This document shows, piece by piece, positions 1-64,000 of a stretch of DNA of 64,000 nucleotides. Position numbers and translations under genes: made by a program. The stretch lies in the NCBI GenBank assembly GCA_001189345.1, contig LFKV01000010.1:62001-126000 (forward strand), given 5' to 3'. The notes under the pieces are model-generated. The model saw only the letters and a program-made list of their open reading frames with translations, did not search any database and had not been told where the DNA came from. The stretch comes from Candidatus Paraburkholderia kirkii (GTDB taxonomy: Bacteria; Pseudomonadota; Gammaproteobacteria; Burkholderiales; Burkholderiaceae). Numbering within the stretch: the stretch's first letter is position 1; each line of letters starts with the position of its first letter.

Positions 1-547
1 GCCGGGAAGATCGACTTCTCCCGCGTCGTCGTCGACTCATCGTCGATTCGTGCGGTTGGGGCGGGCGAAAAACTGGCCCGAACCCCACCGACCGAGCACG
101 ACCCGGTTCCAAGCACCACGTCACCACCGACGCCAACGGTACGCCGATCGCGGCAATCCTGACCGGCGCCAATCGTCACGACGTCACCCAACTGATCCCG
201 TTGATCGAGGCCATCGTACCGATTGGCGGCGTGCGCGGCCGGCCGCTGAGTCGCCCTGGCTGTGTTTATGCCGACCGCGGTTACGATCATGACAAGTACC
301 GGTGCCTCCTTCACGCGCGCAACATTCCCACCAGCATCGCGCGGCGCGGTCACCCGCACGGTAGCGGCCTTGGGAAAGTCCGTTGGGTCGTCGAACGTAC
401 ACATGCCTGGTTGCATAACTTCCGCCGTCTACGTACTCGCTTCGAACGTCGTGCGGACATTCATGAAGCGTTCCTCAAACTCGGTTGTTGCTTGATCTGC
501 TGGAACACTCTTCGGCAATCTCAACAGCCTTTATGAAACCGTCTCTT
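1..547 (+). pseudogene. IS5-family (IS427-like group) transposase, C-terminal part, cut by window edge
   Basis: The reading starts at base 1 in frame 1 (DFSRVVVDSSSIRAVGAGEK) and continues one frame back from about base 75 (GPNPTDRARPGSK ... YADRGYDHDKYR ... WVVERTHAWLHNFRRLR ... LKLGCCLICW), ending at the TGA at 534-536. These are the DDE domain motifs of IS5-family transposases common in Burkholderia: D of VVVDSSS, D of ADRGYD and E of VVERTH. The switch falls at an A-run (gaaaaactgg). Members of this group can use programmed -1 frameshifting, so the switch may be natural or decay. The element's end is inferred near 547, at the inverted-repeat-like end gaaaccgtctc. The 5' half lies outside the window. 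Confidence 0.8.
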
Positions 548-901
548 AGTCGCGAGCTGTTCGTCGAATTGCTCAAGAAGTTGATGTTTCATCGTAAAAG
601 AGCGGTTCATTTGATCGTCGACGGATTGCCAGCGCATAAGAAAGCCATCGTTAAGGACTATGTCGCGAGTACGCAGGGCAAGTTGACTTTGCATTTTCTG
701 CCCGATTACGCACCGGACCTCAATCCAGATGAACTGGTGTGGAGTCACGTCAAGCGGACCGGCGTCGCGCGACGCCCACTTCAAAAAAGGTGAAAAGTTG
801 GGCTCAAAAATTCACGAGCAGCTTTCACAAATTAGCCGCGATCCGTGCCTTGTTCGATCATTTTTAGGCATCAATCTGTCAGCTATATTGCTGACGTTTG
901 A
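548..901 (+). pseudogene. IS630-family transposase C-terminal fragment (different from the 1114-bp element)
   Basis: Directly after the IS5 end the + strand encodes LSRELFVELLKKL, VHLIVDGLPAHK, FLPDYAPDLNPDELVWSHVKR and later SYIADV. This is the C-terminal half of a DDE_3 (IS630-type) transposase with the second catalytic D (VDG) and the E (PDELVW). Two single-base indels break it: an extra A in the run at about 782-788 and a missing T at about 866. The upstream half would lie left of the window, so the IS5 element apparently inserted into this IS630 element. No function remains. Confidence 0.75.
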
Positions 902-979
902 GTAAATGGCGCGGCCGGCCCCGCGACCCGTTGTTACACCCCATGTTACTTCATCAACAGGCGCTTCATTGCGGCCCGG

Positions 980-1932
980 TCAGAAGCGATAGTCGGGATT
1001 TCGCGGGTCGAACGTCAGATCGTCGAAGGATTTGATCTGGATGCGCTCGAACATCACACTTTCGAACATGTTGCCATCGTTGTCGAACGATTCGAGCGTG
1101 CGCAGGAGCGGCCGTTCCAGATCGAGGCCGAGGACTTCCTTCTTCGCATAGAACTCGGGCTGCCCGGACGGCGTTTCATACGTCGGCGCGACGACGCGCA
1201 ATCCATGTACCGTGTTTACTTCGATATTCGCCGGCTTCGTGATGCCTGCTTCGGCGAACCGGTGTCCCTCGTCGATGAAGCGCTGCGTGATCGCGTCGAT
1301 GCCGAGCTCGCGGATCGAATGATTCGACTGCGCGCGAGCGAGCGCGCCGTTCACCGACGTCCACATCGGCACGACGCCAAGCAAGCCGCCGAGATGACGA
1401 CCGTAGAGCTCGTCGGGGCGCTTGGAGTCGTCGTAGATGACTTTCTGGCCCGCGTGCGCGCCGTCGGGAAGCCATCTCGCGTAGATGCGCAGCGGCTCGC
1501 GCGTGATGTGCACGAGCATGTGATCGGCGCGCTTCGGCCACTTGCCCTTGATGCGTTTGCGCCGCCACATCGTGAACTCGTAGACGTGTAGTCGCGCAAG
1601 CCTTCCCGCAGATAGCGCCGCAGATAGCGCGGCAGGGCGTCCGGATCGAGCGCGCGGAAGAGGGCGACGAGCTGCGCGTCGTCGAGCTTCGCCAGCGTGC
1701 CGCTTGCGGCGGATTTCGCGAGCCACTGCGCTTGCTGCTCGACGCCGAGCGTGCCGACGCGCGCGATGTCGAGCGCTTGCGCCGCCGCCGTCACCGCTGC
1801 GTCGCCCGACGTCTGGGCATGCGCCGGGATCGGACCGGCAAAGCCGCCGAGCATGGCGCAGGCAGTCAGGTTCGCGTAAGCGAACCGCCAATCCGAAGCG
1901 CGGCGGCGCCATCGCGCACGCGGCATGGGCAT
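980..1932 (-). pseudogene. DUF1571-family exported protein, frameshifted
   Basis: The N-terminal part (from 1932) has a signal peptide (ACAMLGGFAGPIPAHA, cleavage after AHA) and continues to LREGLRDYT. The reading then needs a one-base shift near 1587 to continue VYEFTMWRRKRIKGKWPKRA to the stop at 980. The C-terminal part has features I associate with the Burkholderia DUF1571 family (KRADHMLVHITREPLRIYAR, GQKVIYDD, HLGGLLGVVPMW). Restoring the base gives about 317 aa, a plausible family length. It lies just downstream of the fadD-like gene on the same strand. The family name is from memory; role unknown. One base loss is the only lesion seen. Confidence 0.6.
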
Positions 1933-1941
1933 CTCCGAGGG

Positions 1942-3664
1942 CTAATCCTGCGATTCTGGCCCGGCGTTGCGCAATGCGCACCGCAGCACCTTGCCGATCG
2001 TCGTCTGCGGCAGCGAGTCGCGGAATTCGACGAAAGCCGGCACCTTGTAGCCGGTCAGGTGTAAACGGGCGAACTTCAGCAGTTCTTCCATCGAAAGCGT
2101 GTCGTTGCGCTTCACGACGAACGCCTTCACGCGCTCGCCCGTCACCGGGTCGGGCACGCCCACGGCGGCGACCGCGCGCACCTTCGGGTGCGCCGCGAGC
2201 ACGTCCTCGATCTCGTTCGGATACACGTTGAAGCCCGACACGATCATCATGTCCTTCTTGCGGTCAACGAGCCGGACGAAGCCGCGCGCATCCATCACGC
2301 CGATGTCGCCGGTGGCGAGCCAGCCGTTTGCGTCCAGCGCTTGCGCCGTGTCTTCCGGGCGATTCCAGTAGCCTTTCATCACCTGCGGACCCTGCACGCA
2401 GAGCTCACCCGCCTCGCCGATGTTCGCCCACGAACCGTCGTCGCGGCGCAGGCGCACGAGCGTGGACGGCACGGGCAGGCCGATCGTTCCATCGAACGCG
2501 TGCGCGCCGCGCGCATCGAGCGGCGTCGCGCAGACGAGCAGCGAGCATTCGGTGAGGCCATAGCCTTCCATGATCGTCTGGCCCGTCAGCGCCCGAAAGC
2601 GCTCCGCGATGGCGCGCTGCGTCGCCATGCCGCCCGCCATGGCGAGCTTGAGCGCGGAGAAGTCGCGCTGGCGGAATTCGTCGTTGTCCAGCAATGCGCT
2701 GTAGAGCGTGTTGAGCGCGGTGATCGCCGTGAAGTTTTCGTGACGCAGGGCGCGCATGAGCGCGTCGATGTCGCGCGGGTTGGCGATCAGCACGTTGCGG
2801 GCGCCGATGCCGAGAAAGACGAGCGCGTTCACCGTCAACGAATAGATGTGATAGAGCGGCAGCGGCGTGACGATGGTCTCCCGCTCGTCGACGAGCGCGC
2901 CGCGCGCCCACGCGAGCGCCTGCAGCAGGTTGGATATGACATTGCGATGGTGAGCATCGCACCCTTCGCGGTGCCGGTGGTGCCGCCCGTGTATTGAATG
3001 AACGCGATGTCGCCGTGCACGATCCGCACCGGCTCGAACGCGCGCCGCGCGCGAGCGCCTGCGGCAGGCGGATCGCATCGGGCAGGGAGTAGGCGGGCAC
3101 CTGCTTCTTCACGTGGCGCAGGAACAGGTCGATTGCCCGGCCCTTGACATTGAGCCCGCCGCCCAGCAGATCGCCGAGTCCGGTCACGACGATGTTCCGC
3201 AGGCGCGAGCCCGGCTGAGCGTCCTGCACCGTCTTCGCGAAGTTCTCGAACACGACGATGGTCTGCGCGCCGCTGTCCTTCAGCTGATGACTGAGCTCGC
3301 GCACCGTGTAGAGCGGATTGACGTTCACCACGATCGCGCCCTCCATCAGCGTGCCGAACAGCGTGACGGGATAGGGCATCATCAGCGCGACGCGGTCGCC
3401 GGGCTTCACGCCCCGCTCCTGCAGATACGATGCGAAAGCAAGCGTCTTCTCGCCGAGCGTGGCGAAGCTCAGTTCCGAGCCGAGACTCACAAAGGCGACG
3501 CGGTCGCGAAACCGCCCGACGCATTCGTCGAGGAAATGCGCGAGCGAGCGATAGCGCGACGGGTCGATTTCGCGAGCGACATCGGGCGGATACGAGGCAT
3601 ACCAGATGCCGTCTGTCGCGTGCGGCTCGAAGGCCCCGCGCGGCGCGGCGTGTTCCGGGCTCAT
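1942..3664 (-). pseudogene. fadD: Long-chain fatty acid-CoA ligase (AMP-binding), two frameshifts
   Basis: The reading starts at 3664 (MSPEHAAPRGAFEP) and carries the ANL-superfamily adenylation motifs: P-loop YTGGTTGTAKGA (about 2975-3005), GYGLTE, TGDIG, the hinge DRKKDMMIVSG, and the C-terminal lysine region QTTIGKVLRRALR-like (TIGKVLRCALR). Two frame changes are needed, near 3045 and near 2945, so no single ORF contains both domains. FadD activates free fatty acids to acyl-CoA with ATP at the inner membrane, the first step of beta-oxidation. It sits downstream of the thiolase, reductase and dehydrogenase genes in the same direction. Intact length would be about 570 aa, normal for FadD. 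Confidence 0.85.
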
Positions 3665-3745
3665 GTGGTGTCTCCGTGGCGCGACTCGTCTTCGTCGACA
3701 GGCGCGCCTTATATTTTTCCTGCGCGTACTTCGTACTTCTATTGC

Positions 3746-4962
3746 TTACCGCTCCAGAATCGCGACGACGCCCTGGCCGCCCACCGCGCAGATCGAGATC
3801 GATCCGCGCAGCGGTTTGCTGTCGCCGCGCGCGGGCGCCTTGGCGAGCATCTTCGCGAGCGTGCCGACGATGCGTCCGCCCGTCGCCGCGAACGGATGAC
3901 CGGTCGCGAGCGAGCCGCCGTTGACGTTCAGGTGCGCGCGATCGATCGAGCCGGGCGGCGCGTTCAGGCCCAGCGCCGTGCGGCAATATTCGTCGTCTTC
4001 CCACGCGGCGAGCGTGCACAGCACCTGCGCCGCGAACGCCTCGTGGATTTCGTAGAAAATCGAAGTCCTGCAGCGAGAGCTCCGCGCGCGAGCATCGAAG
4101 GCACGGCGTAGGCGGGCGCCATCAGCAGGCCCTCGCGCTTGCCGAAGAAATTGACGGCGGCGGTCGCGGAGAACGTCAGGTAGGCCAGCACCGGCAGGCC
4201 GCGCTCGGCGGCCCATTGCTCGGAGGCGAGCAGCACGGCCGATGCGCCGTCGGTGAGCGGCGTCGAGTTGCCCGCGGTGAGCGTGCTGGCGTCACGATCG
4301 AACGCGGGTTTCAGTTGCGACAGCTGATCGAGCAAAATATCCGGACGCAGATTGTTGTCGCGCGCGAGTCCCTTGTACGGCGTCATCAGATCGTTGAAAA
4401 AGCCGCGCGCGTACGCCGCCGCCAGCTTGCGATGACTGTCCTCCGCAAGCGCATCCTGCGCCTCGTGCGAGATCTTCCAGCGCTTGACCATCAGCTCGCA
4501 GTGCTCGCCCATCGAGAGGTTCGTGCGCGGCTCCGCGTTGCGCGGCAGGAGCGGCCTGAAGAACATGCCGGGCCGCAGCTTCGCGAGCGCGCCGACGCGG
4601 GCGCCGGCCGAGCGTCCGCGATTCGCCTCCAGCAGGATCTTGCGCAGGCGTTCGTTCACGGCGATGGGCGCGTCCGACGCCGTATCCACACCGCCCGCGA
4701 TGCCCGCGTCGATCTGCCCGAGCGCGATCTTGTTGACGACCAGGATGACGATTTCGAGCCCGGTGCCGCAGGCCTGCTGCACGTCGTAGGCCGGTGTTTC
4801 CTTCGCGAGCGTGGTCGAGAGCGCGGCTTCGCGCGTCAGGTTGAAATCGCGCGAATGCTTGACGACGGCGCCCGCCGCCACTTCGCCGAGCCGCATGCCG
4901 TGCAGGTCGAAGCGATCGACGAGTTCTTGCAACGTGAAGCTCAGCATGTCCTGATTCGACAC
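3746..4962 (-). pseudogene. fadI: Acetyl-CoA acyltransferase (FadI-like thiolase), 5' deleted and frameshifted
   Basis: The reading begins abruptly at SNQDMLSFTLQELVDRF, about 60 residues into a normal FadI, fused to the end of the preceding reductase gene. It retains the nucleophilic Cys region (YDVQQACGTGLE), GNSTPLTDGAS, the HEAFAAQ motif and the final catalytic pair (NVNGGSLATGHPFAATGGR; CAVGGQG). A frameshift near 4075 separates the body from the C-terminal part ending at 3746. Thiolases release acetyl-CoA in the last step of beta-oxidation. With the N-terminus missing, the Cys loop cannot fold into a complete thiolase, so this is a pseudogene even if the frameshift were a read error. 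Confidence 0.85.
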
Positions 4963-6222
4963 GCTCGCGCACGCCGAAGGGCATGCGCGCGGTCATGTCG
5001 GTCTCGATGAAGCCGGGCGCGACCGCGTTGATCGTGATGCCGCGCTCGCGCAGCAAGGGCGCCATCGCCTGCACGCGGCCGATCACGCCGGCCTTCGAGG
5101 TCGCATAGTTGGTCTGGCCGCGATTGCCCGCGATGCCGCTGATCGACGAAACCGCGACGATGCGCCCACCCACGCGCAGCACGTCCTGCCCGAGCAGCAT
5201 TTCATCGATGCGCTCCTGCGCCAGAAGATTGATGTCGATCACGCTGTCCCACATTTCCGCGGTCATGCGCGCGATGGTCTTGTCGCGCGTGATGTCCGCA
5301 TTGTGCACGACGATATCGATGTGCCGCCCGCCTGGACGAGCGCGGCGGCGATGTCCGCCACGAGCGCCGCGTGCGCGCCGCCCGAAGGCGAGGCGTCCTC
5401 GATCGAGAGCATGGTCTGGTCGAGCGCGTCGCGCGATGCGGCCACGTCGAGCCCGGTCACGATTGCGCCGTGGCCGGCGAGCACCGCCGCGATCGAGGCG
5501 CCGATGCCGCGCGCCGCGCCCGTCACGAGCGCGCGCCTGCCCGCAAGCGGCTTCGCCCAGTTCTCCGGGGCGGCGGCGGGCGCGTCGATCGTTACGACCT
5601 GTCCCGAGACATAGGCCGAGCGCGGCGAGAGAAAGAAGCGCAGCGCGGTCTCGACATTCGCGCCTTCGGCCACGCGCAGCAGGTTCGACGTGGTGCCGTT
5701 GCGCGCTTCCTTGCCGAGCGAGCGGGTGAGGCCTTCGAGCGCATGCTGCGCCGTGGCGGCGGCCATCCTCGTGCGCGTGGCGGGCGGCCGTCCGAGCACG
5801 ACGATGCGCCCGCTCCTGCCGAGGGAGCGCAGGGCGTCGTGAAAGAACGTGTATGCGGAGTGCAACTGGCTGCCTTCCCCGATGCCGGTCGCGTCGAAGA
5901 TCAGCGCCTGGACGCGGTCGCCCGCGAGCGCGTCGCGCGTGCGTGGCTCGAAGCGGCCGCTCATCGCGCCGTGACGGGCGGCGACGGGCAGCCAGCCGGA
6001 CGCGCTTTCGTGCGCGACGCTCGTCATGCCGATCGCGGAGAGCACGCCCATCAGGTCGTCGAAGAGCGCGGGCGACGGTCCCGCGCCGATGGCCGCCATC
6101 CCGCCGAACTCGGCCTGGTCCGCGCGATGACGGCGCAGCACTTCGGGACGCGGGAGCCCGAGCGAGCGGGCGATGCCCATGCCAAAAGGCGAATTGACGA
6201 AGTCGAGATAGCGGTCTTTCAT
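4963..6222 (-). pseudogene. fabG: 3-oxoacyl-[ACP/CoA] reductase (FabG-like SDR), frameshifted and 3' truncated
   Basis: Starts MKDRYLDFVNSPFGMGIARSLG at 6222 and resembles the long (about 450 aa) two-domain SDR that accompanies FadI-type thiolases in Burkholderiales. The second domain has the NAD(P) motif VTGAARGIGASIA and, after a frameshift near 5315, VSSISGIAGNRGQTNYATSKAG with the Ser/Tyr/Lys catalytic residues. The C-terminus stops matching at GFIETDMTARMPFGVRE, where the sequence jumps into the interior of fadI. About 50 residues of the reductase end are deleted. Gene order (fadE, fabG, fadI, fadD) fits a beta-oxidation operon. Confidence 0.85.
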
Positions 6223-6282: not shown

Positions 6283-8785
6283 TCAGGCGATGGATTCGGG
6301 CGTCGGCCGCTCGAGCGCCTCGCTGCGTTTTTGCAATGCTTCGAGGATACCGAAGTCTGCGGAAAAATCATCGACTTTCACCGCTTCGCGCGCGTGGCCC
6401 GCCCACGCGGCAAGGAGCGCCTGCTCGTCTTCGTCGATCAGGCCGCCCGCGCCCATGTCTCGATCTCGTCCGGGCTTTGCGGCAGCGGCGCGGCCCGGCC
6501 GGCCTTGACGGCGTCCCGCAGGCGCGCTTCCAGGGCGGCGACCGCGGGCGTGAGCGCGAGCAGCCTTTCGCCGCGAGCGATCGGATCGTCTTCGAAAGCG
6601 CAAACGTGCGAGCCCGCGACGCCGCGACGAGCCGCTCGCGCGCCTCGTCGGGCGTTTGCATCAGCACGGCGACCTGACTGCCGAGCGCGTCGGCGCCCGG
6701 CGCGTGCGGCAGGCCGAACGGGAACGCGATGGCGCGCAGGCACGCCGCCGCCGCGCGATTCGGATAGTTCGCGAGCAGGCCGTCGAACGCGGCGCACGCG
6801 CGGTACAGCGCATCCTCTGCGCCCCAGCGCACGAGCGGCAGATCGCTCTCCGGACGACCGTCGTCCTCGAAGCTTGAGCGTCGCGGACAGTAACAGTTGC
6901 GAGAGGATGTCGCCGAGCCGCGCCGAAAGGCGCTCGCGGCGCTTCAGCTCGCTCCCGAGCACGAGCATCGAGACGTCGGCGAACAGCGCGAACGCGCTCG
7001 AGAGGCGCGTGGCGGCGCGGTAGTATGGAACGAGCCGCGCATCGGCGCGCGCGGGCTTGCGCATGAGGGCGGCGCCGCCGAACGCGTACACGAGACTGCG
7101 CATCGCGTTGGCCGCGAGAAAGCCTGCGTGAGCGAAGAAGGCGTCGTCGAAAGCGCGCAGCGCGCGGGCGGAATCCGGCTCGCGCGTCGCGGCCATTTCC
7201 TTCAGCACGTACGGATGGCAGCGGATCGCGCCCTGCCCGAAGATGATCAGGCAGCGCGTGAGAATGTTCGCGCCCTCGACCGTGATCGAGATCGGCATCT
7301 GCTGATACGCGCGCGCCAGGAAGTTCGCCAGGAAGTTCGACGGCCCCATGCAGATGCCCTTGCCCGCGACGACGTCCATGCCGTCGTTGATCACCTGCCG
7401 CGCGCGCTCGGTGATGTGATACTTCGCGATCGCCGAAATGACCGAGGGCTTTTCGTCCAGATCGACGGCCTGCGCCGACAGGCGGCGCGCCGCGTCCATC
7501 ACGTACAGATTGCCGCCCATGCGCCCGAGCGCTTCCTGAATTCGAAGCGCCCGATCGACGTGCGGAACTGGCGCCGCGCCGCGGCATACGCGCTCGTGCC
7601 GCGCACCGCGAGCTTGGCCATCCCGACGTTCGACGATGGCAGCGAGATCGCGCGTCCGGCGGCGAGGCACTCCATCAGCATGCGCCAGCCGTTGCCGACC
7701 TGCGCGCGTCCGCCGATCACCCATTCGATCGGAATGAAGACGTCCTCGCCCCAGTTCGGACCGTTCTGGAACACCGCGTTGAGCGGCCAGTGCCGCCGCC
7801 CGATATGCACGCCGGGGTGATCCGTCGGGATGAGCGCGCAGGTGATGCCGGGCGCTTCGTCGCCGCCGAGTAGGCGATCCGGATCGAGCGTGCGGAAGGC
7901 GAGGCCGAGCACGGTCGCGATCGGCCCGAGCGTGATGTAGCGTTTCTTCCACGTGACGCGAAAACCGAGCGTTTCGCGGCCCTCGTGCATGCCGCGGCAG
8001 ACGATGCAGACGTCGGGGATCACGGCCGCATCCGATCCGGCATAAGGGCTCGTCAGGGCGAAGCGGGGGATTTCGTCGCCGCGCGCGAGGCGCGGCAGAT
8101 AGTAATTCTTCTGTTCCTCGGTGCCGTAGTGCAGCAGCAATTCGGTGGGACCGAGCGAGTTCGGCACCATCATCGAGACGGCCGCCGCCGACGAATGCGT
8201 CGCGAGCTTCATGATGACCTGCGAGTGCGCATACGCCGAGAACGCCTTTCCGCCGTACTGCTTCGGGATGATCATGCCGAGAAAGCCTTGCTCCTTCACA
8301 TACGCCCATGCTTGCGGAGAGAGATTCTGCCAGATGACGGTCGTGTCCCAGTCGTTCGACAGATCGCACAGGCGCGCGCATTCGTTGTCGATGGAGCCTT
8401 GTTCTTCCTGCGTCAGCTTCGGCGCGCCATGCGACAGAAGCGAGTCCCAGCGCGGGCGGCCGGAGAAGAGTTCCGCGTCCCACCAGACCGTGCCGGCCTC
8501 GATGGCGTCGCGTTCCGTCGACGACATCTCCGGAAGAATTCCGCGGAATACGGCGAGCGTGCGGCGGCCGATCAGCGCGCGGCGCAGGGGTTCCATGGCG
8601 AGCACGAGCGCTGGAATCAAGAAGACAATCGCGAGAAGCGTCACGCCGACGGCGCCCGTCACACCGACGATCGGCCCGGCGGCCACCCAGATGGCGATCC
8701 CGGCAAGTCAGGCGACGGCGGGCGCCTGCAGGAATGCAAGCGCGCCGGCGAGAAGGAGGAATGCGATGACGTAGAGCGCGGGCAT
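6283..8785 (-). pseudogene. fadE: Acyl-CoA dehydrogenase (FadE type), nonsense plus several frameshifts
   Basis: The natural start is at 8785 (MPALYVIAFLLLAGALAFLQ, a membrane segment); codon 26 is an in-frame TGA at 8708-8710. After it the body matches enterobacterial-type FadE closely: VFRGILPEMSSTERDAIEAGTVWW, YGGKAFSAYAHS, FALTSPYAGSD, CALIPTDHPGVHIGRRH, MDVVAGKGICMGPSNF, TVEGANILTRCLIIFGQGAIRCHP. Further frame changes are needed near 7545, 6870, 6620 and 6470. FadE catalyses the FAD-linked first oxidation of acyl-CoA. Normal length is about 800-830 aa, as here. Five or more independent lesions make this an unambiguous pseudogene. Confidence 0.9.
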
Positions 8786-8912: not shown

Positions 8913-8946
8913 GTAAGCGCTCGATCTGTACCGTTGTCTCGTTCTA
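8913..8946 (+). repeat. Left copy of the 34-bp inverted repeat
   Basis: Reads GTAAGCGCTCGATCTGTACC onward and ends at the TA that is also the left target site of IS630 copy 1. Its partner is at 10586-10619 in opposite orientation with a single G/A difference. Probably a terminal inverted repeat of an unidentified IS. Confidence 0.65.
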
Positions 8947-10060: not shown

Positions 10061-10415
10061 TAGCAATCGCTGCAGCTCGCGAATCTGCTTCATTGCTTCG
10101 GCTAGGTCAGATGCCGGCACCACGTGCTCGCCGGCAGACCACCGATAGGCTCTCGTCCTGATAGAGCTTGCGCCAGCCGAAGACTTGGTTGGCATTCACT
10201 TGATGTCGGCGAGCGACGCCAGAGACCGTTGCACCGGGCTCGAAAGTCTCGCGAACTATCGCTAGTTTCTCTTCAACCGAACGCCGGCGGCGCTGCTCCG
10301 GCTGGGTCAGAACTTCTAGAGGTTCCACGTTATGACTAGGCTTAAACATAGGCAGAAGACTACCTCAAAATAATTTAAGCGTCACCGCATGTCCGGCTTT
10401 TGCGGGGGCAAGTCC
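10061..10415 (-). pseudogene. IS3-family (IS2-group) orfA remnant with left IS end
   Basis: From 10349 the minus strand encodes [54 protein letters not shown], a typical IS2-group OrfA helix-turn-helix. A frameshift near 10145 then leads to [21 protein letters not shown], where IS630 copy 1 cuts it at 10061. The segment 10396-10415 carries the IS end TGGACTTGCCCCCGC (read leftwards), which recurs at 30588. The continuation of orfA and all of orfB are missing on the far side of the IS630. Confidence 0.75.
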
Positions 10416-13439: not shown

Positions 13440-13444
13440 CGGGC

Positions 13445-52793: not shown

Positions 52794-52894
52794 GGAGCGG
52801 CTACTGGTTGACACGGCGCATCGCATCTGCTGCGGCGCCGGGCTTCGCCTGCATCCTGCCCGCGATCTCCCGGCCGTGCCGCATCTGCCCGCCG

Positions 52895-53919: not shown

Positions 53920-54212
53920 GCGGGAATTCGGTTTGCGGTTCTGGGTATTTCTGGGTATATCTGCGGGCGCTTGCTTCGAGGCGCGAGTCGTGCTGCCATG
54001 TGGTAGTGTGCCACCGGTCGCGCCTGAATCGCGATCGTACCGCGCGAACACGCCGGTGCGACAATCTCCGCATGTGCAAGGGGGCGCGCAAATATGACTG
54101 TCATATTGACAGCGTATCATCGCGCCACGCAAGACGGGCCGGGCGCACGCGCGGCGTCCGCATCGAGTCCTGCCGCGAGCGCGGCGCCGAACGCCAAACT
54201 GGGGAGAAGGCA

Positions 54213-54557
54213 GTGGAAGACCGTGACGATCTGGACGGTGCGACGCAGACGACCGCCAGAGGGCTCATCCGGCTCGCGTCGATGATCGCGGGGCTGGCGC
54301 GCGAAGGCGCGCTCGACACGCGTTTCGGCGCGAAGCTCTTCAGGCGGCTCGACAAGGAAGCGCGGCGCATGTCCGGACGCGGCGCGGCGCGGCTCGACGA
54401 AACCGAGCAGGCGGCGCTCGCCGGCGCACTCGGCGAACTGGACCTCGCGTTGCGCCAGCGCGACGCGGCCTCGCTCGTCGAGGCGAATGCGCGGCTGCGC
54501 GAGAGCGACAGTGCGTCGGGCAAGCGGCGCAAGAGCAAGAAAGACGACGATGCCTGA
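54213..54557 (+). CDS. Hypothetical charged protein
   Basis: GTG start behind GGGGAGAAGGCA; 114 aa: VEDRDDLDGATQTTARGLIRLASMIAGLAREGALDTRFGAKLFRRLDKEARRMSGRGAARLDETEQAALAGALGELDL ... ending GKRRKSKKDDDA. Helical, strongly charged with a basic C-terminal tail; no domain recognised. Clean ORF between corA and the response regulator. A reading upstream of the GTG is open but has no start with a good ribosome binding site. Confidence 0.55.
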   Translation: MEDRDDLDGATQTTARGLIRLASMIAGLAREGALDTRFGAKLFRRLDKEARRMSGRGAARLDETEQAALAGALGELDLALRQRDAASLVEANARLRESDSASGKRRKSKKDDDA

Positions 54558-54623
54558 ATTCCGGCTGGTCTGACCGGGCGCGAAACGTGCTGCGGCGCGG
54601 GCGTGTGAATCTGTCGATTGGCC

Positions 54624-55055
54624 ATGCCCGTAACCCTGCACTCTCCTCACTGCGCACTGTGGTCGAACCGCCGCGTCGGCGTGGACCGCGATCCGTGGCG
54701 CATTCTGGTCGTTGACGACAATGCGTCCAGCGCTGAAGCACTGGCAGCCGCGCTCACGGCCGACGGATTCGATACGCGCTTCGCGCTCTCCGGCGTCGAT
54801 GCGCTGCACTCGATCGATCCGTGGGTGCCGCATGTCGTCATTCTCGACATCACCATGCCCGAGCACGACGGCTACGCGACCGCGCGCGTGCTGCGGCGGA
54901 TCGCCCGCACGCGCGACGCCGGGATCATCGCGTTCACGGCGCTCGGTGAGGAGAGCGTGCGGCCCGAGGGCCTGGATGCCGGGTTCGACGGCTACTGCCA
55001 GAAGGGCAATCCGCCCGCGGCGCTCGTCCGTCTGATCGAGCGCCTCGTTCACTGA
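54624..55055 (+). CDS. Single-domain response regulator (CheY-like)
   Basis: Intact 143 aa. Receiver domain: RILVVDDNASSAEALAAALTADG (acidic pair), phospho-Asp in HVVILDITMPEHDGYA, Thr/Ser in IIAFTALGEES, Lys in GYCQKGNPPAALVRLIERLV. No output domain, so it probably acts by protein contact or phosphotransfer. An N-terminal 20-residue extension precedes the receiver. No kinase is adjacent. Confidence 0.88.
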   Translation: MPVTLHSPHCALWSNRRVGVDRDPWRILVVDDNASSAEALAAALTADGFDTRFALSGVDALHSIDPWVPHVVILDITMPEHDGYATARVLRRIARTRDAGIIAFTALGEESVRPEGLDAGFDGYCQKGNPPAALVRLIERLVH

Positions 55056-55764: not shown

Positions 55765-56743
55765 TCAGGCCACCCTGGCGAGCGCGCTGCGCATCACGTC
55801 CGCAAGCTCCGACGCTTCGAACTTCGGAACTTCGACACATACGTGTTCGCGCCGACCTTGCGCAAGTGCTGCTCGTTCGCCGAACCGACAGCGACGAGTG
55901 GATCACCACCGGAATGTGCATCAGGCCCGTGTCCGCCTTGATGCGGCGCGTGAGCGTGAAACCGTCCATTTCGGGCATTTCCAGATCGGTCAGCACGAGC
56001 ACGATCTGATCGGCCACTTCGGTGCCTTCCTTTTGCGCCTTCTTCAGCGCGGCGTCGAGCACGTCCCACGCTTCCTGGCCGGTCTTGGTCATCACGAAGG
56101 GCGCGCCCATGGCGGTGAGGCTCTGCTCGATGAGCGCACGCGCTACGTCCGAGTCGTCCGCTGCGAGCACGCGCGCGCCCGGCCTGATCTGCAGCCGGCC
56201 GGTGTTCGCCTCGATAATGTCCGATTCCCGCGCCGGCAGCACGTCGCGCACGATGCGCTCGACGTCGAGCACCTGCGCGAGCCGCGAGCCGTCAACGTTG
56301 CCGTCCAGCCGCGCGAAGCTCGTCACCATGGTGCCGCCCGAGTGCGACTCCGCCGACAGCACCTGATTCCACTCCAGCCGCACGATATCGTCCACTTCCT
56401 CGACCGCGAGGCCTTGCGTCGTGCGCGCGAACTCGGTGACGAGCAGGATCTTCGGGCCGTTCTTCGGACGGCAGCCGGCGATGCGCGCAAGATCGATCAC
56501 GGGAATGATCTGCCCGCGAATATCCGCGACGCGGAGAATCTCCTCGGGCGATCCGGCCACGGCGGTGATCACCGGCATGGCGAGGATCTCGCGCACCTTG
56601 AACACGTTGATGCCGTAAAGCTCGCGCACCCCGTCGCGCGGCTCCGCGCCCGGCGTTTCGCCGAGCCTGAACAGAAGCAATTCGAACATGTTGCTGCCAG
56701 CGAGCCGCACGCGCTGCTCGATATCCTGCTGTGAATGACTCAC
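55765..56743 (-). pseudogene. cheV: Chemotaxis protein CheV, frameshifted near the end
   Basis: GTG start at 56743 (SHSQQDIEQRVRLAGSNMFELLLFRLGE). CheW-like domain: YGINVFKVREILAMPVITAV, VIDLARIAGC, VEEVDDIVRLEWNQVLSAE. Receiver domain: RVLAADDSDVARALIEQSL, VLTDLEMPEMDGFTLTRRIK (phospho-Asp), VVIHSSLS. Near 55905 and 55825 shifts interrupt GSANEQHLRKVGANTYVSKF and the final MRSALARVA; stop 55765. About 325 aa repaired. CheV couples chemoreceptors to CheA. Confidence 0.87.
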
Positions 56744-57152: not shown

Positions 57153-57593
57153 ATGGCAACAGTCGCACAGGTTCTGAATTCGAAACCCGACCAGACGGTC
57201 TATACGATTGCCGCAACGGCCTCGGTCTTCGATGCGATCAAGCTGATGGCCGACAAGCATATCGGCGCGGTGATCGTCACCGAAGGCGACGAGATCGTGG
57301 GCATCATGACCGAGCGTGACTATGCGCGCAAAGTCGTTCTGATGGACCGCGCGTCGAAGCAGACGCCCGTGCGCGACATCATGACCTCGCACGTGCGCTA
57401 CGTGCGCATGGACCAGACGACCGACGACTGCATGGCGCTCATGACGGACAAGCGCATGCGCCATCTGCCGGTGATTGACGGCGGCCGGCTCGTCGGCATG
57501 ATCTCCATCGGGGACCTGGTGAAGAACATCATCTCCGAGCAGCAGTTCACCATCCAGCAGCTCGAGTACTATATTCGCGGCGAGCACACGTAA
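57153..57593 (+). CDS. CBS-domain protein
   Basis: Intact 146 aa with two CBS motifs: VYTIAATASVFDAIKLMADKHIGAVIVTEGDEIVGIMTERDYARKV and VRYVRMDQTTDDCMALMTDKRMRHLPVIDGGRLVGMISIGDLVKNII. CBS pairs bind adenine nucleotides and regulate partner proteins. No other domain. The C-terminal QQFTIQQLEYYIRGE is typical of the Burkholderia members. Stand-alone gene. Confidence 0.92.
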   Translation: MATVAQVLNSKPDQTVYTIAATASVFDAIKLMADKHIGAVIVTEGDEIVGIMTERDYARKVVLMDRASKQTPVRDIMTSHVRYVRMDQTTDDCMALMTDKRMRHLPVIDGGRLVGMISIGDLVKNIISEQQFTIQQLEYYIRGEHT

Positions 57594-57757: not shown

Positions 57758-58670
57758 ATGACCCCAACCGCCGCATCCTCCGCCCCCCGAAACGGGCGAC
57801 GCGCTCGCCGCCGAGGCGCCGTTTTTCATCGTGATAAACACAGGCTCGGGCCGCCAGCAGGCAGATGCGACGCGCGCCGCGCTCGCGCGCGAACTCGGCG
57901 CGGCCGGACGCCGCTTCGAGATGCGCGTCGTCGACGATCCGCGCCGCCTCGAAATCGTCGCGCGCGAAGCCGCGGCGGCGACCGGCACGCTCTGCACCGT
58001 CGCGCATGCCGCGTTCGATGCCGGCTGCCCGTTCGCGGCGCTTCCTCGCGGCACCTTCAACTACTTCAGCCGCGATCACGGCATTCCCGTTGATCTCGAA
58101 CCATCGATCAGACTGTTGCTCGACGCACGCGCCTATCCCGTGCAGGTGGGCTTCGTTAACGCACGGATGTTCCTCGTCAATGCCAGTCTCGGCCTCTATC
58201 CCCGGCTGCTCGAAGACCGCGAGACCTACCAAGCGGCAGTTCGGCCGCAGCCGGCTCGTCGCGCTGTGGTCGGCGCTTTTCACGCTGCTCAGGCCGCACC
58301 GCCATCTGCGTTTGCGCCTCGAACACGAAGGCAGTACGACCGAGATCCGCTCGTCGACGCTCTTCCTCGGCAACAACCGGCTGCAGATGGAGCAGATCGG
58401 CATGCCGGAGGAAGCGCGCGCTGGAACAGGGCTTGCTCGCCGCGATTGCGCCGCGGCCGGGTGGGGCGGCTCTCCGATTCGGATCACGTGATGAGCTTCG
58501 CGTTCGAGCGCATCGTGGTGACGCATCCGTCGAAGAAGCGCTGGCTCGTGAAGATCGCCACCGACGGCGAAATCACGCGGCTGCGGATGCCGCTGGAATT
58601 CCGCGTGTCCGACAAACCGCTGCTCCTGCTCAAGCCCGAGCCGGCGGCGGCGCTGGCGAATCGCTCATGA
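57758..58670 (+). pseudogene. Diacylglycerol kinase-family lipid kinase, frameshifts and deletion
   Basis: MTPTAASSAP at 57758, then shifted: APFFIVINTGSGRQQADATR (nucleotide-binding start), GTLCTVAHAAFDAGCPFAALPRGTFNYFSRD (GTxN loop), FVNARMFLVNASLGLYPRLLEDRE; another frame FGRSRLVALWSALFTLLRPHRHLRL, STLFLGNNRLQMEQIGMPEE; then DSDHVMSFAFERIVVTHPSKKRWLVKIATDGEITRLRMPLEF. The segment between AAIAPRP and the next block lacks about 15 hydrophobic residues. Four or more lesions. Its TGA overlaps the next ATG. Confidence 0.8.
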
Positions 58671-59517
58671 CCTTGCTGCTGCAGATTTCCGATACGCATT
58701 TCGGCACCGAGCGGCCGCAGGTCGTTGCCGCCTTGCTGCGCCTCGCCGACGCGCTCGCGCCCGATCTCGTCGTCCCTGTCCGGCGACATCACGCAGCGCG
58801 CCCGCAAGCGCCAGTTCGCCGCGGCGCGCGCATTCCTCGACGCGCTCGGCGCGACGCCCACGCTCGTCGTGCCCGGCAATCACGACATTCCGCTGTTCGA
58901 TCTGCTCGCGCGGCTCTTCATCCGTACGCGAATCATCAGCGCGCGTTCGGCGCCGATCTGGAGCCTTCGTTCGAATCGCCGGGACTGCTCGTGCTCGGCG
59001 TCAATACGACGCGACCCTATCGTCACACGGACGGCGAAGTGTCGATGCGGCAGATCAGGCGCGTCGCCTCGCGCCTTGAGACGGCGAGCGCGGCGCAATT
59101 GCGCGTCGTGGTCACGCATCAGCCGGTGGCCGTCACGCACGCGCAGGACGAAAAGAACCTTCTGCGCGGACGCGAGCGCGCGGTGCGGCGCTGGGGCGCG
59201 CGCGGGCGCGGATCTGATTCTCGGCGGGCACATTCATCTGCCGTACGTGCTGCCGCTGCACGACGATACCTTCGCCGGCCTGCCGCGCCGCGTGTGGGCC
59301 GTGCAGGCGGGCACGGCGCTGTCGTGGCGCACGCGTGGAACCATCGGCATATTCGGTGAACCTGATCCGCCATGACGCGGTCGCGGGCGGTGCCAGGCAG
59401 ACGAGCGTCGAACGCTGGGACTACTCGGAGACGGGCGAGGCGTTCGAGATGATCGAGCGCCACGATCTGGCGCTCGATGGCGCGACGCCGCCGGTCGCCG
59501 TCACGCTGGCCGGATGA
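58667..59517 (+). pseudogene. Metallophosphoesterase, frameshifted
   Basis: MTLLLQISDTHFGTERPQVVAALL (D-x-H), then in other frames LSGDITQRARKRQF (GD), TLVVPGNHDIPLFDLLARLF (GNHD), VVVTHQPVAVTHA, LILGGHIHLPYVLPL (GHxH) and RWDYSETGEAFEMIERHDLAL, ending at 59517. All metal-binding motifs of the calcineurin-like family exist but at least four frame changes separate them. Coupled to the lipid-kinase gene by ATGA, so the two likely acted in the same lipid-phosphate process. Confidence 0.83.
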
Positions 59518-59998: not shown

Positions 59999-60247
59999 GT
60001 GAGTTTCGAACTGATGCGCGCGCAGGCGAATTTGTTCGAGACACTGCCGGTCTTTGCCGCCGCCGTGTTGATCGTGTACGTGACGGGACGCGAAAACGTG
60101 CTCACGCATTACGGCGCGCTCGCGTATTTCGTCGCGCGCGTGCTCTACGTGCTGCCGCTTTACGCGGCGGGCGTGCCATTCGTGCGCTCGCTGGTGTGGC
60201 TGGTGTCGATCGTGGGCATCGTTCAGGTGCTCGTGCATATCATCTGA
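59999..60247 (+). pseudogene. MAPEG-family membrane protein, probable internal deletion
   Basis: GTG start behind TGGAGGCGCC. Reads SFELMRAQANLFETLPVFAAAVLIVYVTGRENVLTHYGALAYFVARVLYVLPLYAAGVPFVRSLVWLVSIVGIVQVLVHII, 82 aa with three hydrophobic helices. MAPEG proteins are normally about 130 aa with four helices; the first helix and the loop ending in RAxAAQANxFE are missing, as if the start (SFEL) had been joined in frame to MRAQANLFETLP. The family handles glutathione and eicosanoid-like substrates in eukaryotes; bacterial roles are unclear. Confidence 0.65.
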
Positions 60248-60279: not shown

Positions 60280-60954
60280 ATGACCGACCAACCTTCGACC
60301 ATCGAGATCGAAACCGCGCCGAATCCCGACTATGCCGTGATCCTCATGCACGGCCTCGGCGCCGATGCCAACGACTTCGTGCCGCTCGTGCCCGAGCTGC
60401 GCCTCGCCGACGCGCCCGCCATGCGCTTCGTGTTTCCGAACGCGCCGGAGATTCCCGTCACCGCGAACAACGGCTATGTGATGCGGGCGTGGTACGACAT
60501 CCTGTTGTTCGAGGGCGTCAACCGGCGCGTGGACGACGCGGGCATCGAGCGGTCGGTCGAAGGCGTGCGCGCGCTCATCGCGGAGCAGAACGCGCGCGGC
60601 ATTCCGGCCGAGCGCATCTTTCTCGCGGGCTTTTCGCAAGGCGGCGCGATGACGTATCACGCGGGCCTCACGCATCCCGACAGGCTCGCCGGGCTGATCG
60701 TGCTGTCGGGCTACATTCCTTCCGAGGGCCTGATCGGCGAATCGCTGAGCGAAGTCAATCGCTCGATCGACATCTTCGCCGCGCACGGCGCGTTCGACGA
60801 CGTGCTGAACGTGAGCCTCGGCGAGCAGGCCTGCGAGTTCGCGCGCGAGCAGGGCTGCAAGGTCGAATGGCATACCTATCCGATGCCGCACTCGGTCTGC
60901 ATGGAGGAAGTCGAGGCGTTGCGCGCGTGGCTCGGCGCGCGGCTAGTTTCCTAG
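60280..60954 (+). CDS. Carboxylesterase/phospholipase (alpha/beta hydrolase, EstB-like)
   Basis: Intact 224 aa: YAVILMHGLGADANDFVPLVPEL (HG oxyanion), RFVFPNAPEIPVTANNGYVMRAWYD, nucleophile in IFLAGFSQGGAMTYHAGL (GxSxG), acid in HGAFDDVLNVS, His in YPMPHSVCMEEVEAL. It belongs to the acyl-protein-thioesterase-like carboxylesterase family; substrates are short-chain esters. Start at 60280 behind GGAGTGCCGAGCA; the ATG at 60265 is an alternative. Its 3' end overlaps the convergent hydrolase gene by 12 bases. Confidence 0.93.
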   Translation: MTDQPSTIEIETAPNPDYAVILMHGLGADANDFVPLVPELRLADAPAMRFVFPNAPEIPVTANNGYVMRAWYDILLFEGVNRRVDDAGIERSVEGVRALIAEQNARGIPAERIFLAGFSQGGAMTYHAGLTHPDRLAGLIVLSGYIPSEGLIGESLSEVNRSIDIFAAHGAFDDVLNVSLGEQACEFAREQGCKVEWHTYPMPHSVCMEEVEALRAWLGARLVS

Positions 60955-61903
60955 GGTCCTGGCGAAGAGGTCAAGCACCGCGTCCGCGTCGATGCCGATG
61001 CAGGCAGCGCAATGCGGCCGCGCGTCCCAGTCCGGGGCGCTCGCGCGCAGCGCATCGGGCTTCTGTATCGTGAGCCCGGCGGCAATGCCGTCGGTCAGGA
61101 CGCGCACCGGGCCGCCGCGCGTCCTGAAGTGCTCGCGCGCGACGACGAACGCCGCGGCGCAATAGTCGTGCGCGTAAATGCCCTTCGACATGCCGTCGCC
61201 GGCGTGGAAGCGTTCATAGAAGCGTGACACGTCCCACACGAAGCGGCCCGCCTCGCCGGCGTCGTCGCGCAAGCGAGGCGAGAAACGCGCTCGTCATCAC
61301 GGTCTGGTGGGTGACGTCGAGGCCTACGATCGACACCTTCCAGGGCGTGCCCAGGACGATGTCGGCCGCGTCCGGGTCGTCGTGCATGTTGACTTCGGCG
61401 GCGGGCGTCACGTTGCCGAGCACGCCGTCGGCGCCGAACGCGCCGCCCATCACGACGACTTCGCGCACCCGCGCCGCAATCGCCGGATCTTCGTTCAGCG
61501 CGAGCGCGAGATTGGTGAGCGGCCCGACCGTGAGCAGCGTGATCTTGCCGGGATGCGCCCGCACCGTCTCGACGATGAACCGATGCGCGGCGCGTTCGTC
61601 TTCCTGCTGTCCACGCGCCCGATCCGCTCGATGTCGCCGAACGCGTCCTTGCCGTGGATAGGCGGGATCGGCACGGGCGGCGGGCGTCGCAACGGCGCCG
61701 CCGCGCCGCGCGCGACCGGCACGCCCAGCGCGAACCGCGACGCGAGGTAGAGCGCGTTGGCGGTCGTCGTGTCGATGTCCGCGTTGCCGAACACGCTGGT
61801 GATGCCGACGAGCTCGATCTGCGGATGCCGCGCCTGAAAACACGAGCGCGATGGCGTCGTCGATGCCGGGATCGGTGTCGTAGATGATCCTGTGCTTCGT
61901 CAT
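60943..61903 (-). pseudogene. Inosine-uridine-preferring nucleoside hydrolase, frameshifted
   Basis: MTKHRIIYDTDPGIDDAIALVF at 61903 has the DxDxGxDD metal motif. Frame changes near 61840, 61590 and 61265 are needed for HPQIELVGITSVFGNADIDTTTANALYL, ERAAHRFIVETVRAHPGKITLLTVGPLTNLAL, VVMGGAFGADGVLGNVTPAAEVNMHDDPDAADIVL, and WDVSRFYERFHAGDGMSKGIYAHDYCAAAFVV, ending at 60943. About 318 aa repaired. It would hydrolyse nucleosides for salvage. Its start overlaps the kinase stop (ATGA). Confidence 0.85.
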
Positions 61904-63915
61904 GCCGTTGCCGTGCATTCGTGCGGGAGCAGGCCGAGTATCCCGCGCCGCAGGTCGGCCGGACTGACGGGCTTGGAAAGCACGTCCTGCTCGCACGCGA
62001 GCTGCACGATGCTCGCGGCGGGCTCGCCCGTCACGACGAGGCAAGGGCAGGGACGGCCGAGCTTCGCCGCGCCGAGCATCGCCACTTCGCGCGCGGTCTT
62101 AGCGTCGCGCAGACGGAAGTCGGTGATGATGAGATCGGGGAAGCGCTCGATGTTGCCGATGATCGCCTCGTATTCCTCGAAGCTCGCGGCGGAGTCGAAG
62201 AGCACGCCCCATTGCGACAGCAGCGCCTCGGTGGAGGCGCGCACGAGGCCGTCGTCCTCCACGAGCAGGACATAGCGGCCCTTGAGCTGCGCCGCTTCGG
62301 CCGCTTCCGAGCGCGCCGGGGCCGTGCACCGAGGGCTTGTCGGGCAACGGCCCGCACAGCGGCATTTCGAGCGAGAAACGCGAGCCGTGCCCTGCGGTGG
62401 ACTTGAGCTCGATGCGATGCTGATCGAGCATCGACATCACCGCGCTGACGATCGACAGCCCGAGGCCGAGCCCCTTGTCGCAATCCTGCTCGGGGTTGTC
62501 GACCTGGAAGAACGGCTGGAAGATCGCGTCGAAATAATCGGCCGGGATGCCGATGCCATTGTCGAGCACGTCGATGCGCGCGCGTGGCCGAGCGCACCAC
62601 GCCGACGATCACCGTCGGCTTCGACGACTTGCTCTGATCCGCGTACTTGATGCCGTTCGACACCAGATTCGCCACCGCGCACCCGAGCCAGTGCGAATCG
62701 CTGCGCACGCAGACCACGTCCTCCTTCGGCAGCCGCAGCCGTAGCTCGACGCCGCGGCTCATCGCGAACGGACGCAATTGCTCCGTGGCCTCCTCGACGA
62801 TCTGCCGCACGTCGAAGACGTGATAGCGCGGCACGACCCGCCCCGATTCGAGCCGCGAGAGGTCGAGCACCGCGTTCAGGAGCCGCGCGAGGATCACGGA
62901 CGAGCGCCCGCATTCGTTGATGAGCCGCTCGGCCTGAGCGAATTCGCCGTTGCGGATCGCCTCGGCCGCCGCCTGCAGGAACAGGTTGAGCGCGTGCATC
63001 GGCTGACGCAGATCGTGCGTCGCCGCGGCGAGGAAGTTGGACTTCTCGCGGCTTGCGGTCTGCGCGGCGAGCATCTGCTGCTCGCGCAGCGCGAGCAGCG
63101 CGTTGGTCTTGTTCTCCTGATCCTTCTTCGAGATTTCGAGCTCGCGGTTCTCTTGCGGCCGAGCGAGACGTTAGCGGTGCGCAGTTCGTCGTTCAGCGAG
63201 GCGAGGGCGCGTTCCGAGCTGTAACGCTCGCGCGACACGCGCTCCGCGTGCGTGCAGACGCCGTGGCCCACGATCACCACGTTGAACATATAGAAGAGCC
63301 CGGCGAAGAAGTCCTTGATGTTGAGCAAATGGATGGCGATCTGCAGGAAGAAGATCGCCCCCATCGTGACGACGCCGACGGTCAGCGCGACGCGCGAGCG
63401 CAGATAGAAGAAGCTGAACTGGAAGAACAGCGCCAGATAGAGGCCGATGAAGTACTGCGTGTAGTTGTAGGGCGCGGGCGTGATCGCCACCATCGTGAGG
63501 ATCAGGCACAGGAGCCCGTAGATGCCTGTGAGAATGACGCGGTGCGCGGTCGCGTGCGAGCGGAACGACGGCCTCAGCACCAGCGCGCCGACGAAGATCA
63601 GCAGCGCGACGCCCGCAAAGCGCAGCGCAAGGATGTCGGCCAGGCGCACGTTGAGCGCCTTTTGCTGCGCACGAAGCTGAAATCCCACCAGAGAAAGCAT
63701 GTCCAGATGACGAGCGCGAGCAGCGCCGACGCGCGCCGGAACGCGCAGAAGCGCTGGCTGTGGTCTTCGAGGAACTGCGCCTTGAGGGCGGGGTCGGAGA
63801 ACGGCGCTGGAATCGAGAGATTGCGCACCAGGCTCGCGCCGGCTTCACGGGCGGCGGCGGAGAGAATGCCTGGGGTGCGCACGCCGGCGGCGCGTTGCGG
63901 TACGGCCATCTTCAT
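61900..63915 (-). pseudogene. Hybrid sensor histidine kinase/response regulator, multiple frameshifts
   Basis: MKMAVPQRAAGVRTPGILSA at 63915. A membrane domain with several helices (FAGVALLIFVGALVLRP, VILTGIYGLLCLILTMVAIT, YTQYFIGLYLALFFQFSFFYL, VGVVTMGAIFFLQIAIHLL) precedes the transmitter: ASREKSNFLAAATHDLRQPMHALNLFL (phospho-His), VANLVSNGIKYAD, VLDNGIGIPADYFDAIFQPF, DKGLGLGLSIV. The C-terminal receiver has VLLVEDDGLV and DLIITDFRLRD, ending SKPVSPADLRRGILGLLP. Shifts near 63680, 63155, 62585 and 62320. The HDLRQPMHALNLFL box is typical of this kinase group. Confidence 0.85.
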
Positions 63916-64000
63916 GCTCGCTCATGGAATCGGAATATCTACTTTAGGCCAATTCGGTCATACCAATACGCCGAGATCTAGCAGCGAACCGAACGCCTGA

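Follow-up and report, generated by a model that had tools for sequence, protein, structure and literature searches.

The host of Candidatus Burkholderia kirkii is an African shrub, and the symbiont is found only in its leaf nodules, where many genes of its soil relatives are no longer needed. The species, whose name is also written Candidatus Burkholderia (Caballeronia) kirkii, is described as an obligate leaf-nodule symbiont of Psychotria (PMC4896955), and both vertical transmission and a lack of viability in culture have been reported for Rubiaceae leaf-nodule symbionts (PMC6294375, PMC8599487). Erosion of its genome is already in print (PMC8599487) and is not a new observation. Table 2 of PMC4896955 lists two drafts: UZHbot1 (305 contigs, 3,990,738 bp), credited to a 2012 paper, and UZHbot2 (48 contigs, 3,914,712 bp, 64.0% GC), credited to Pinto-Carbo 2016.

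Here we analysed a stretch of 64,000 nucleotides (the window) from a draft assembly with a completeness of 97.34%, in which GC ranges from 61-69% across window segments. The assembly has 48 contigs and 3,914,712 bases, and these two numbers, the basis of the comparison, are exactly those of the UZHbot2 table entry. The first-pass annotation, made from the letters of the window, had proposed a host-dependent Burkholderiaceae lineage like leaf-nodule symbionts, and with this match to Table 2 the proposal proves literally correct. As in leaf-nodule symbionts, whose genomes are far smaller than those of free-living relatives, the genome is about half the size of that of its nearest relative, G055 (3.9 vs 7.7 Mb).

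We consider it very probable (about 95%) that the window belongs to the UZHbot2 draft of an obligate, vertically transmitted Psychotria symbiont, in which plant-only life has relaxed selection, lesions have arisen late and the core has stayed clean. Life confined to the plant would relax selection on catabolic, transport and regulatory genes, with host restriction and drift as the likely cause. Small frameshifts, nonsense mutations, deletions and IS insertions would then build up late on the branch separating the lineage from G055, and translation and transcription genes, still under selection, would remain clean. Our analysis bears out a case of early genome erosion that was already in print; what the analysis adds is a close full-size relative, G055, against which every lesion can be dated, and a gene-by-gene comparison.

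Lesion census against a full-size relative

Lesions were scored against G055, the closest full-size relative, and polarised with four full-size outgroups. Of 58 G055 genes with a window counterpart, 56 were intact in at least one outgroup; only these were kept, which tilts the comparison towards clean controls. The two genes lacking an intact outgroup copy (46275-46900 and 46991-48221), both broken, were dropped, as were three frameshift events that were not found in the window alone. This left 65 frameshifts, 11 nonsense codons and 3 large indels, with 35 of the 56 genes broken. Two truncated genes (msrB-like, 41484-41949; carbamoyltransferase, 32537-34379) were then excluded because their alignments enter non-homologous DNA past a deletion or IS junction. 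In the final census 33 of 54 genes are broken, by 60 frameshifts, 10 nonsense codons and 3 large indels (73 lesions in 47.6 kb, or 1.53 per kb). Two genes among the 33 are doubtful cases: azlD, which is lesion-free against G001, and a DUF2917 gene, whose sole stop lies within an N-terminal extension missing from the G001 gene model. Among the large indels, one marks where the rmuC remnant stops at the edge of its block. Four G055 genes (A04, D06, D07 and D08) are missing from their place in collinear blocks; scoring was otherwise confined to G055 genes that have a counterpart in the window.

Against the same reference, the four full-size relatives each had 0-3 broken genes of 49-56 (3 lesions in 50.8 kb, 0 in 44.3 kb, 2 in 43.3 kb and 0 in 39.4 kb). 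A first census, later replaced by this one, used G001 as reference with 14 short or mobile gene models excluded and found 33 of 53 window genes broken; its full-size controls were less clean (12/55 genes flagged in G005, 6/58 in G009 and 5/58 in G011), and 15 of 29 genes were flagged in the reduced genome G003. As a rough check, coding-score density was computed for the window (0.56), for 14 sampled 20-kb genome stretches (0.39-0.82) and for 15 stretches from relatives (0.65-0.89). The broken genes are as follows.

980..6222, minus strand: lipid-metabolism run of DUF1571, AMP-ligase, thiolase and SDR genes, all four with lesions (census, Pfam); a 296-aa gene (A04) is missing from within it
6283..8785, minus strand: fadE-like acyl-CoA dehydrogenase, 4 frameshifts and 1 nonsense codon (Pfam ACDH_C)
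10623..11040, minus strand: rmuC remnant, broken, cut at block edge
12024..14115, minus strand: two broken genes, a citrate-type transporter (CitMHS_2) and a LUD-domain gene
16519..17421, plus strand: aspartyl/asparaginyl beta-hydroxylase, one nonsense codon
17425..20151, minus strand: lutC/lutB/lutA-like lactate-utilisation genes, all three broken (LUD_dom and CCG domains; lutB by position only)
20288..20755, plus strand: GntR/FCD regulator, broken, two large deletions
23764..26648: DUF4088 gene (plus strand) and UvrD-type helicase (minus strand), both broken
34106..34379, plus strand: carbamoyltransferase remnant, cut at an IS copy, outside the counts
37410..38777, minus strand: ferritin-like gene and GntR regulator, both broken
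41176..42179, minus strand: LysR gene, truncated by a deletion spanning about 4.4 kb (alignment break, Pfam)
42179..44451, plus strand: two-component regulator and sensor kinase, both broken
46275..50338, plus strand: 208-aa gene, HlyD and C39-peptidase ABC exporter, all broken
51636..53919: TetR regulator, DUF1348 and CorA genes, all broken
55765..56743, minus strand: CheW/receiver gene, broken
57758..59517, plus strand: diacylglycerol kinase and metallophosphoesterase, 4 lesions each
59999..60247, plus strand: MAPEG gene, 5' part deleted
60943..63915, minus strand: two broken genes, a nucleoside hydrolase with 3 lesions and a hybrid sensor kinase with 4

Between them lie the following lesion-free genes and one tRNA.

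11037..12020, minus strand: D-2-hydroxyacid dehydrogenase, intact
14283..15467, minus strand: pncB, frame intact, one in-frame 6-base deletion
15767..16090, plus strand: fdxA, intact (name from the first-pass annotation)
16218..16293, plus strand: tRNA-Asn
21034..23597, plus strand: creA, AraC regulator, azlC and azlD, without lesions (azlD judged against G001; one frameshift is still flagged in the G055-based census)
30704..32538, minus strand: lipA and lipB, intact
34734..36251, minus strand: amino acid permease, intact
36674..37330, plus strand: 1-Cys peroxiredoxin, intact
39252..40145, plus strand: ketopantoate reductase (ApbA/PanE), intact
50331..51629, plus strand: TolC-like outer membrane efflux gene, intact next to broken partners
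54162..55055, plus strand: 131-aa gene (no Pfam match) and response-regulator gene, both lesion-free
57153..57593, plus strand: CBS-domain gene, intact
60280..60954, plus strand: carboxylesterase, intact

The first-pass annotation had described decay across the whole window and about 40 damaged genes, and both statements stand: the 33 broken genes, two cut, two broken without an intact outgroup copy and four missing come to about 40. All 11 genes that it called clean are lesion-free, pncB with its in-frame deletion. Its attribution of five or more lesions to three genes holds for fadE and the C39 ABC gene (5 each) and fails for the metallophosphoesterase (4).

Sequencing error, chance and selection

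As the window comes from a draft genome, most of its indels could be errors of sequencing or assembly. Small indels do dominate (60 frameshifts vs 10 nonsense codons), the spread of lesions over genes is nearly random, and 5 of the 32 single-base indels fall in runs of 4 or more bases, which make up 1.8% of bases; some single-base indels in runs may therefore be errors. The other 27 lie in runs of 3 or less, and the completeness of the assembly also speaks against error. Sequencing error is not the main cause of the lesions, because the core genes are lesion-free and dN/dS is raised in the broken genes. The 36 genes scored around this assembly's ribosomal operon (27.8 kb) carry 0 lesions where 43 would be expected, which speaks strongly against an artefact. 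On the branch leading to the window, dN/dS of broken genes is 0.212 vs 0.087 on the sister branch (Fisher p=3e-5), whereas the rise in clean genes (0.128 vs 0.080) is not significant (p=0.16). Within the window broken and clean genes differ at p=0.048, the broken class having been set before the last filtering step, with weak cases still included.

Artefactual indels should be equally frequent in essential genes and in repeats, and neither the core genes nor the IS copies bear this out. The IS copies are the weaker control: 29 IS630-like copies differ from the window copy at 44916..46043 only in the outer 14 bases, with no internal indel. The element has no runs of 5 or more bases, so that this control is silent on such runs, and gap-filling may have affected its copies. 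What decides the matter is the core-gene control together with the substitution pattern, and we regard an origin of most indels in error as highly improbable.

The orthologue comparison and dN/dS analysis suggested in the first-pass annotation point to relaxed selection in broken genes, and its description of the erosion as recent is supported, as dN/dS in these genes is still far below 1. Such young decay would also fit a free-living or facultative Caballeronia losing genes for another reason, for example as a mutator or laboratory strain. This is extremely unlikely, given a genome half the size of its nearest relative and an assembly equal to the published UZHbot2 draft in base count and contig number as tabulated.

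The first-pass annotation had also argued that lesions are too unevenly spread for chance, and had used this against sequencing error. When lesions were dealt to genes by length in simulations, the observed spread proved close to chance: 21 lesion-free genes were seen vs 17.5 expected (p=0.12) and chi-square over genes gave p=0.105 (54 genes), while the 56-gene set gave chi-square p=0.053 and 0.051 and p=0.11-0.15 for lesion-free genes. Some gene with 5 lesions appeared in 90% of simulations (54 genes). A slight excess of unevenness over chance is possible, and the argument against error drawn from it is weak. Nor was lesion density related to amino-acid conservation across the relatives (Spearman 0.01, p=0.95, 56 genes). 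Unevenness was therefore rejected as proof of selection, the lesions nearly fitting a length-weighted random model and not tracking conservation. Because the TolC-like gene is clean beside broken exporter partners and the lesion spread is near chance, the absence of lesions from a gene with broken neighbours argues weakly for function in this window.

Tentatively, and at somewhat under even odds, we suggest that pseudogene formation in the window was near-random over non-core genes and limited to about the final seventh of the branch that follows the split from G055 ((0.212-0.087)/(1-0.087)=0.14). If so, host restriction would have come long after the species split, and decay would have run independently of that in G003, which is probably Ca. 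B. schumannianae UZHbot8.

Mobile elements and comparison with related symbionts

Decay is further supported by large deletions and by IS at block joints. The deletion of about 4.4 kb that cuts the LysR gene also removes three whole genes and most of the msrB-like gene, as judged from the alignment break. The mobile elements of the window are the following.

1..549, plus strand: partial IS of the DDE_Tnp_1 family, joined to an IS630-like piece at about 545-914 (Pfam DDE_Tnp_1, DDE_3)
8939..10066, minus strand: IS630-like copy whose 343-aa transposase frame is open (DDE_3, from a Pfam match of the identical protein at 44954-45985)
27733..29551, minus strand: decayed IS21-like istB/istA, 95-97% to G001:C2 (Pfam IstB_IS21 on the G001 copy), with 7 stops within 27733-28586
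32986..34105, minus strand: IS630-like copy at the joint between two blocks, one belonging to G001 contig C1 (3.0 Mb) and the other to G001 contig C4 (1.5 Mb)
44916..46043, plus strand: IS630-like copy, reference of the internal control

The genome holds at least 40 full-length IS630-like copies (40 of 174 candidates scored), and the partial IS at 1..549 has at least 29 further genomic places matching 545-560 bases at 99-100% (40 of 358 candidates scored). Expanded IS families (at least 40 copies of the first, at least 30 places with the second) and many pseudogenes beside intact core genes, as seen in the lesion census and the ribosomal-operon control, are both traits of leaf-nodule symbionts.

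In a three-gene tree the window genome groups with G055 and G003. The symbionts pumila and brachyanthoides fall elsewhere in this tree, and a placement with the main Psychotria symbionts was rejected. The clustering of the three genomes, together with 11 of 30 genes broken in both the window and G003, would suit a decay that is ancestral and common to the two, rather than separate in each lineage. This is most unlikely: the 30 genes contain no lesion common to both when matched by place and size (51 vs 21 lesions), the overlap in broken genes is not significant (p=0.23), and the window is closer to full-size G055 than to G003 (96.1% vs 92.6% over the three genes). Nor does this overlap bear out the idea that the same genes decayed in parallel in G003.

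On contig C43 two ORFs of the DHQ-synthase family (PF01761; 404 and 406 aa) occur besides two aroB-like loci and are putative cyclitol synthase (EEVS) genes, which an obligate Rubiaceae leaf-nodule symbiont would be expected to carry. Of the genomes searched, 5 of the 10 reduced ones and none of the 4 full-size ones had this lower-scoring PF01761 type; the five reduced genomes searched in which it was not found include known leaf symbionts.

Compared with described systems, the window shows no difference in kind from Ca. B. kirkii, being of the same species by the contig number and base count tabulated for UZHbot2. G003 resembles it as the nearest reduced relative in the three-gene tree, with 12 of 29 genes broken, yet differs in having each of its lesions at its own place or size across the 30 genes scored in both. 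Lv-StB, a Burkholderia symbiont of Lagria beetles, is described as a case of young reduction with many pseudogenes and transposases, as here; it differs in its insect host and its relationship to B. gladioli, and its genome is 23.5% of its relative's size, whereas that of the leaf-nodule symbiont is about half (PMC7042692).

Gene decay in the window and its relatives

Among 58 genomes of the genus compared with segment 13445-16090 of the window, the closest relative (94% identity) was G055, a full-size genome (7.7 Mb, about 120 contigs). The genome carrying the window, G000, has 3,914,712 bases in 48 contigs and a completeness of 97.34%, and the window lies at C10:62001-126000. The reduced symbiont genome G003 (2.4 Mb, 60% complete) was second closest, at 89%. 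In a three-gene tree the window, G055 and G003 form one group with support of 100, a figure that applies to the whole group and not to its inner node; G001 and C. peredens lie next to it, and Ca. B. pumila is placed elsewhere, as is Ca. B. brachyanthoides.

A codon-usage ORF finder supplied the gene models of G055, which were aligned to the window and four full-size relatives. Scoring covered the 56 genes for which at least one outgroup has an intact copy.

Lesions counted with G055 as reference, before polarisation
Window, 56 genes: 68 frameshifts, 11 nonsense codons, 3 large indels
G001, 56 genes: 2 frameshifts, 1 large indel
G009, 51 genes: 0 lesions
G011, 50 genes: 2 frameshifts
G005, 49 genes: 0 lesions
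G003 (reduced), 29 genes: 16 frameshifts, 1 nonsense codon, 2 large indels

Outgroup polarisation left 65 frameshifts, 11 nonsense codons and 3 large indels in the window, with 35 genes broken. Removal of two genes whose alignments extend beyond a break gave a final count of 33 broken genes in 54 (azlD and the DUF2917 gene being doubtful members), with 60 frameshifts, 10 nonsense codons and 3 large indels in 47.6 kb, against near-zero lesions in the four full-size relatives. An earlier census referenced to G001 found 33/53 window genes broken (68 frameshifts and 10 nonsense codons in 46.8 kb), compared with 12/55 in G005, 6/58 in G009, 5/58 in G011 and 15/29 in G003; the first three of these relatives differed from G001 by 4-11 frameshifts and 0-5 nonsense codons in 45-51 kb.

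The broken genes include those of fatty-acid degradation (fadE, thiolase, short-chain dehydrogenase, AMP-ligase), lactate utilisation and citrate-type transport. CorA, nucleoside hydrolase, diacylglycerol kinase, metallophosphoesterase and a UvrD-type helicase are broken as well, as are regulators, a hybrid kinase, a CheW/receiver gene and both members of a two-component pair. A deletion of about 4.4 kb took out three genes. The first-pass annotation had described about 40 broken genes beside a clean core, and this picture holds: the clean genes that it named (pncB, fdxA, lipA, lipB, peroxiredoxin, amino acid permease, ketopantoate reductase, creA, azlC, CBS protein and esterase) carry no lesion, nor do ten more. 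The name fdxA is taken from that annotation, and lutB was assigned by position. HlyD and C39-ABC are broken, and their TolC-like partner next to them (50331-51629) is intact.

The same annotation had considered the lesions uneven beyond chance, which our counts do not bear out. When lesions were dealt at random to the 54 genes by length, 17.5 lesion-free genes were expected on average and 21 were seen (p=0.12), and the most-hit gene, with 5 lesions, was as expected. Evenness chi-square tests gave p=0.11 for 54 genes and p=0.05 for 56, and lesion density showed no relation to conservation among relatives. Unevenness inside the window thus hardly exceeds chance, and some clean window genes may therefore simply not yet have been struck. 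The strong contrast is between the window's non-core genes and the ribosomal region elsewhere in the genome.

Sequencing error and relaxed selection

Sequencing or assembly error is a very improbable source of most of the indels. In the neighbourhood of the assembly's PF00181 (ribosomal L2) gene, 36 genes (27.8 kb), which to judge from their order and first residues encode mostly ribosomal proteins, RNA polymerase and translation factors, carry no lesions where the window rate predicts 43 (P(0)=3e-19). Likewise, 29 IS630-like copies differ from the window copy at 44920-46039 only in the outer 14 bases (30 copies including the reference, 33.6 kb; these are the best 30 among 40 full-length copies, from a listing in which 40 of 174 candidates were scored). 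This control is weaker because runs of 4 bases are rare in the element and runs of 5 or more absent, and because repeats may have been gap-filled. Of the 32 simple single-base indels, 27 fall in runs of at most 3 bases. The other 5 fall in runs of 4-6, an enrichment over the 1.8% of bases that such runs make up, and one that error and slippage mutation alike would give.

Substitutions, a measure independent of indels, also speak against error. Using those unique to the window branch, dN/dS for 31 broken genes was 0.212 (130 N, 197 S), compared with 0.087 (38 N, 140 S) on the G055 branch (p=3e-5), a rise that indel errors alone would not produce. The 20 clean genes did not differ significantly (0.128, 36 N, 86 S, versus 0.080, 20 N, 77 S; p=0.16), and broken versus clean genes on the window branch gave p=0.048. 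In a first count referenced to G001, window N/S was 0.475 for broken and 0.327 for clean genes; three full-size relatives gave 0.18-0.25, and G003 about 0.45.

Mobile elements, blocks and DHQ-synthase genes

The window is a mosaic of blocks, each collinear with relatives.

Blocks and elements of the window
About 930-8800, 10623-27790, 30646-32989: three distant places on G001 contig C1 (3.0 Mb)
34090-44574, 47640-63972: two distant places on G001 contig C4 (1.5 Mb)
8939-10066, 32986-34105, 44916-46043: full IS630-like copies
27733-29551: decayed IS21-like element
1-914: second abundant IS (DDE_Tnp_1 family) fused to an IS630-like fragment

All three IS630-like copies lie at joints of blocks far apart in G001, and that at 32986-34105 joins blocks of two different G001 contigs. 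The IS21-like element shares 95-97% identity with a copy on contig C2 of G001, more than the genes of the flanking blocks show (about 82-88%), and is perhaps a recent transfer. The 914-base arrangement also occurs on contig C47 of the window's genome.

Elsewhere in this genome there are two aroB-like loci and, on contig C43, two lower-scoring DHQ-synthase-family ORFs (404 and 406 aa).

DHQ-synthase-family ORFs of contig C43
G000:C43:42731-43072, L288
G000:C43:24278-24610, L291

The lower-scoring type was found in 5/10 reduced genomes (G000, G003, G044, G051, G071) and 0/4 full-size ones; the same search of these 14 genomes did not find it in pumila or brachyanthoides. The C43 ORFs are probably EEVS-type genes of cyclitol synthesis; a passage of PMC8599487 places an EEVS of Ca. 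B. kirkii on its plasmid pKIR01. L279 (contig C41) and L283 (contig C5) are a pair of DHQ-synthase paralogues, one broken and one intact. The copy that matches the aroB on contig C116 of G055 is disrupted by 2 frameshifts and 1 nonsense codon, and the second paralogue, with its counterpart on G055 contig C104 (91.5%), is intact and may carry the shikimate step.

Probable course of the erosion

The lesions, the clean core, relaxed selection, the IS copies and the IS630-like elements at block joints are observed. In the most likely course of events, a lasting existence inside the plant, with transmission bottlenecks, would have relaxed selection, and small mutations and IS activity would then have broken genes near-randomly. 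If the broken genes went from the sister's dN/dS to neutrality, the neutral share of the branch would be about 14%, an estimate that ignores mutation bias and concerns a class selected by its own lesions. Across 30 genes the window and G003 share no lesion that agrees in both place and size (51 versus 21 lesions), and the two lineages therefore probably eroded separately in these genes. A passage of PMC4896955 gives obligatory leaf endosymbionts the smallest genomes of this clade, and the recent erosion in a host-bound Burkholderiaceae lineage proposed from the window is a phenomenon already in print for this species, Ca. B. kirkii.
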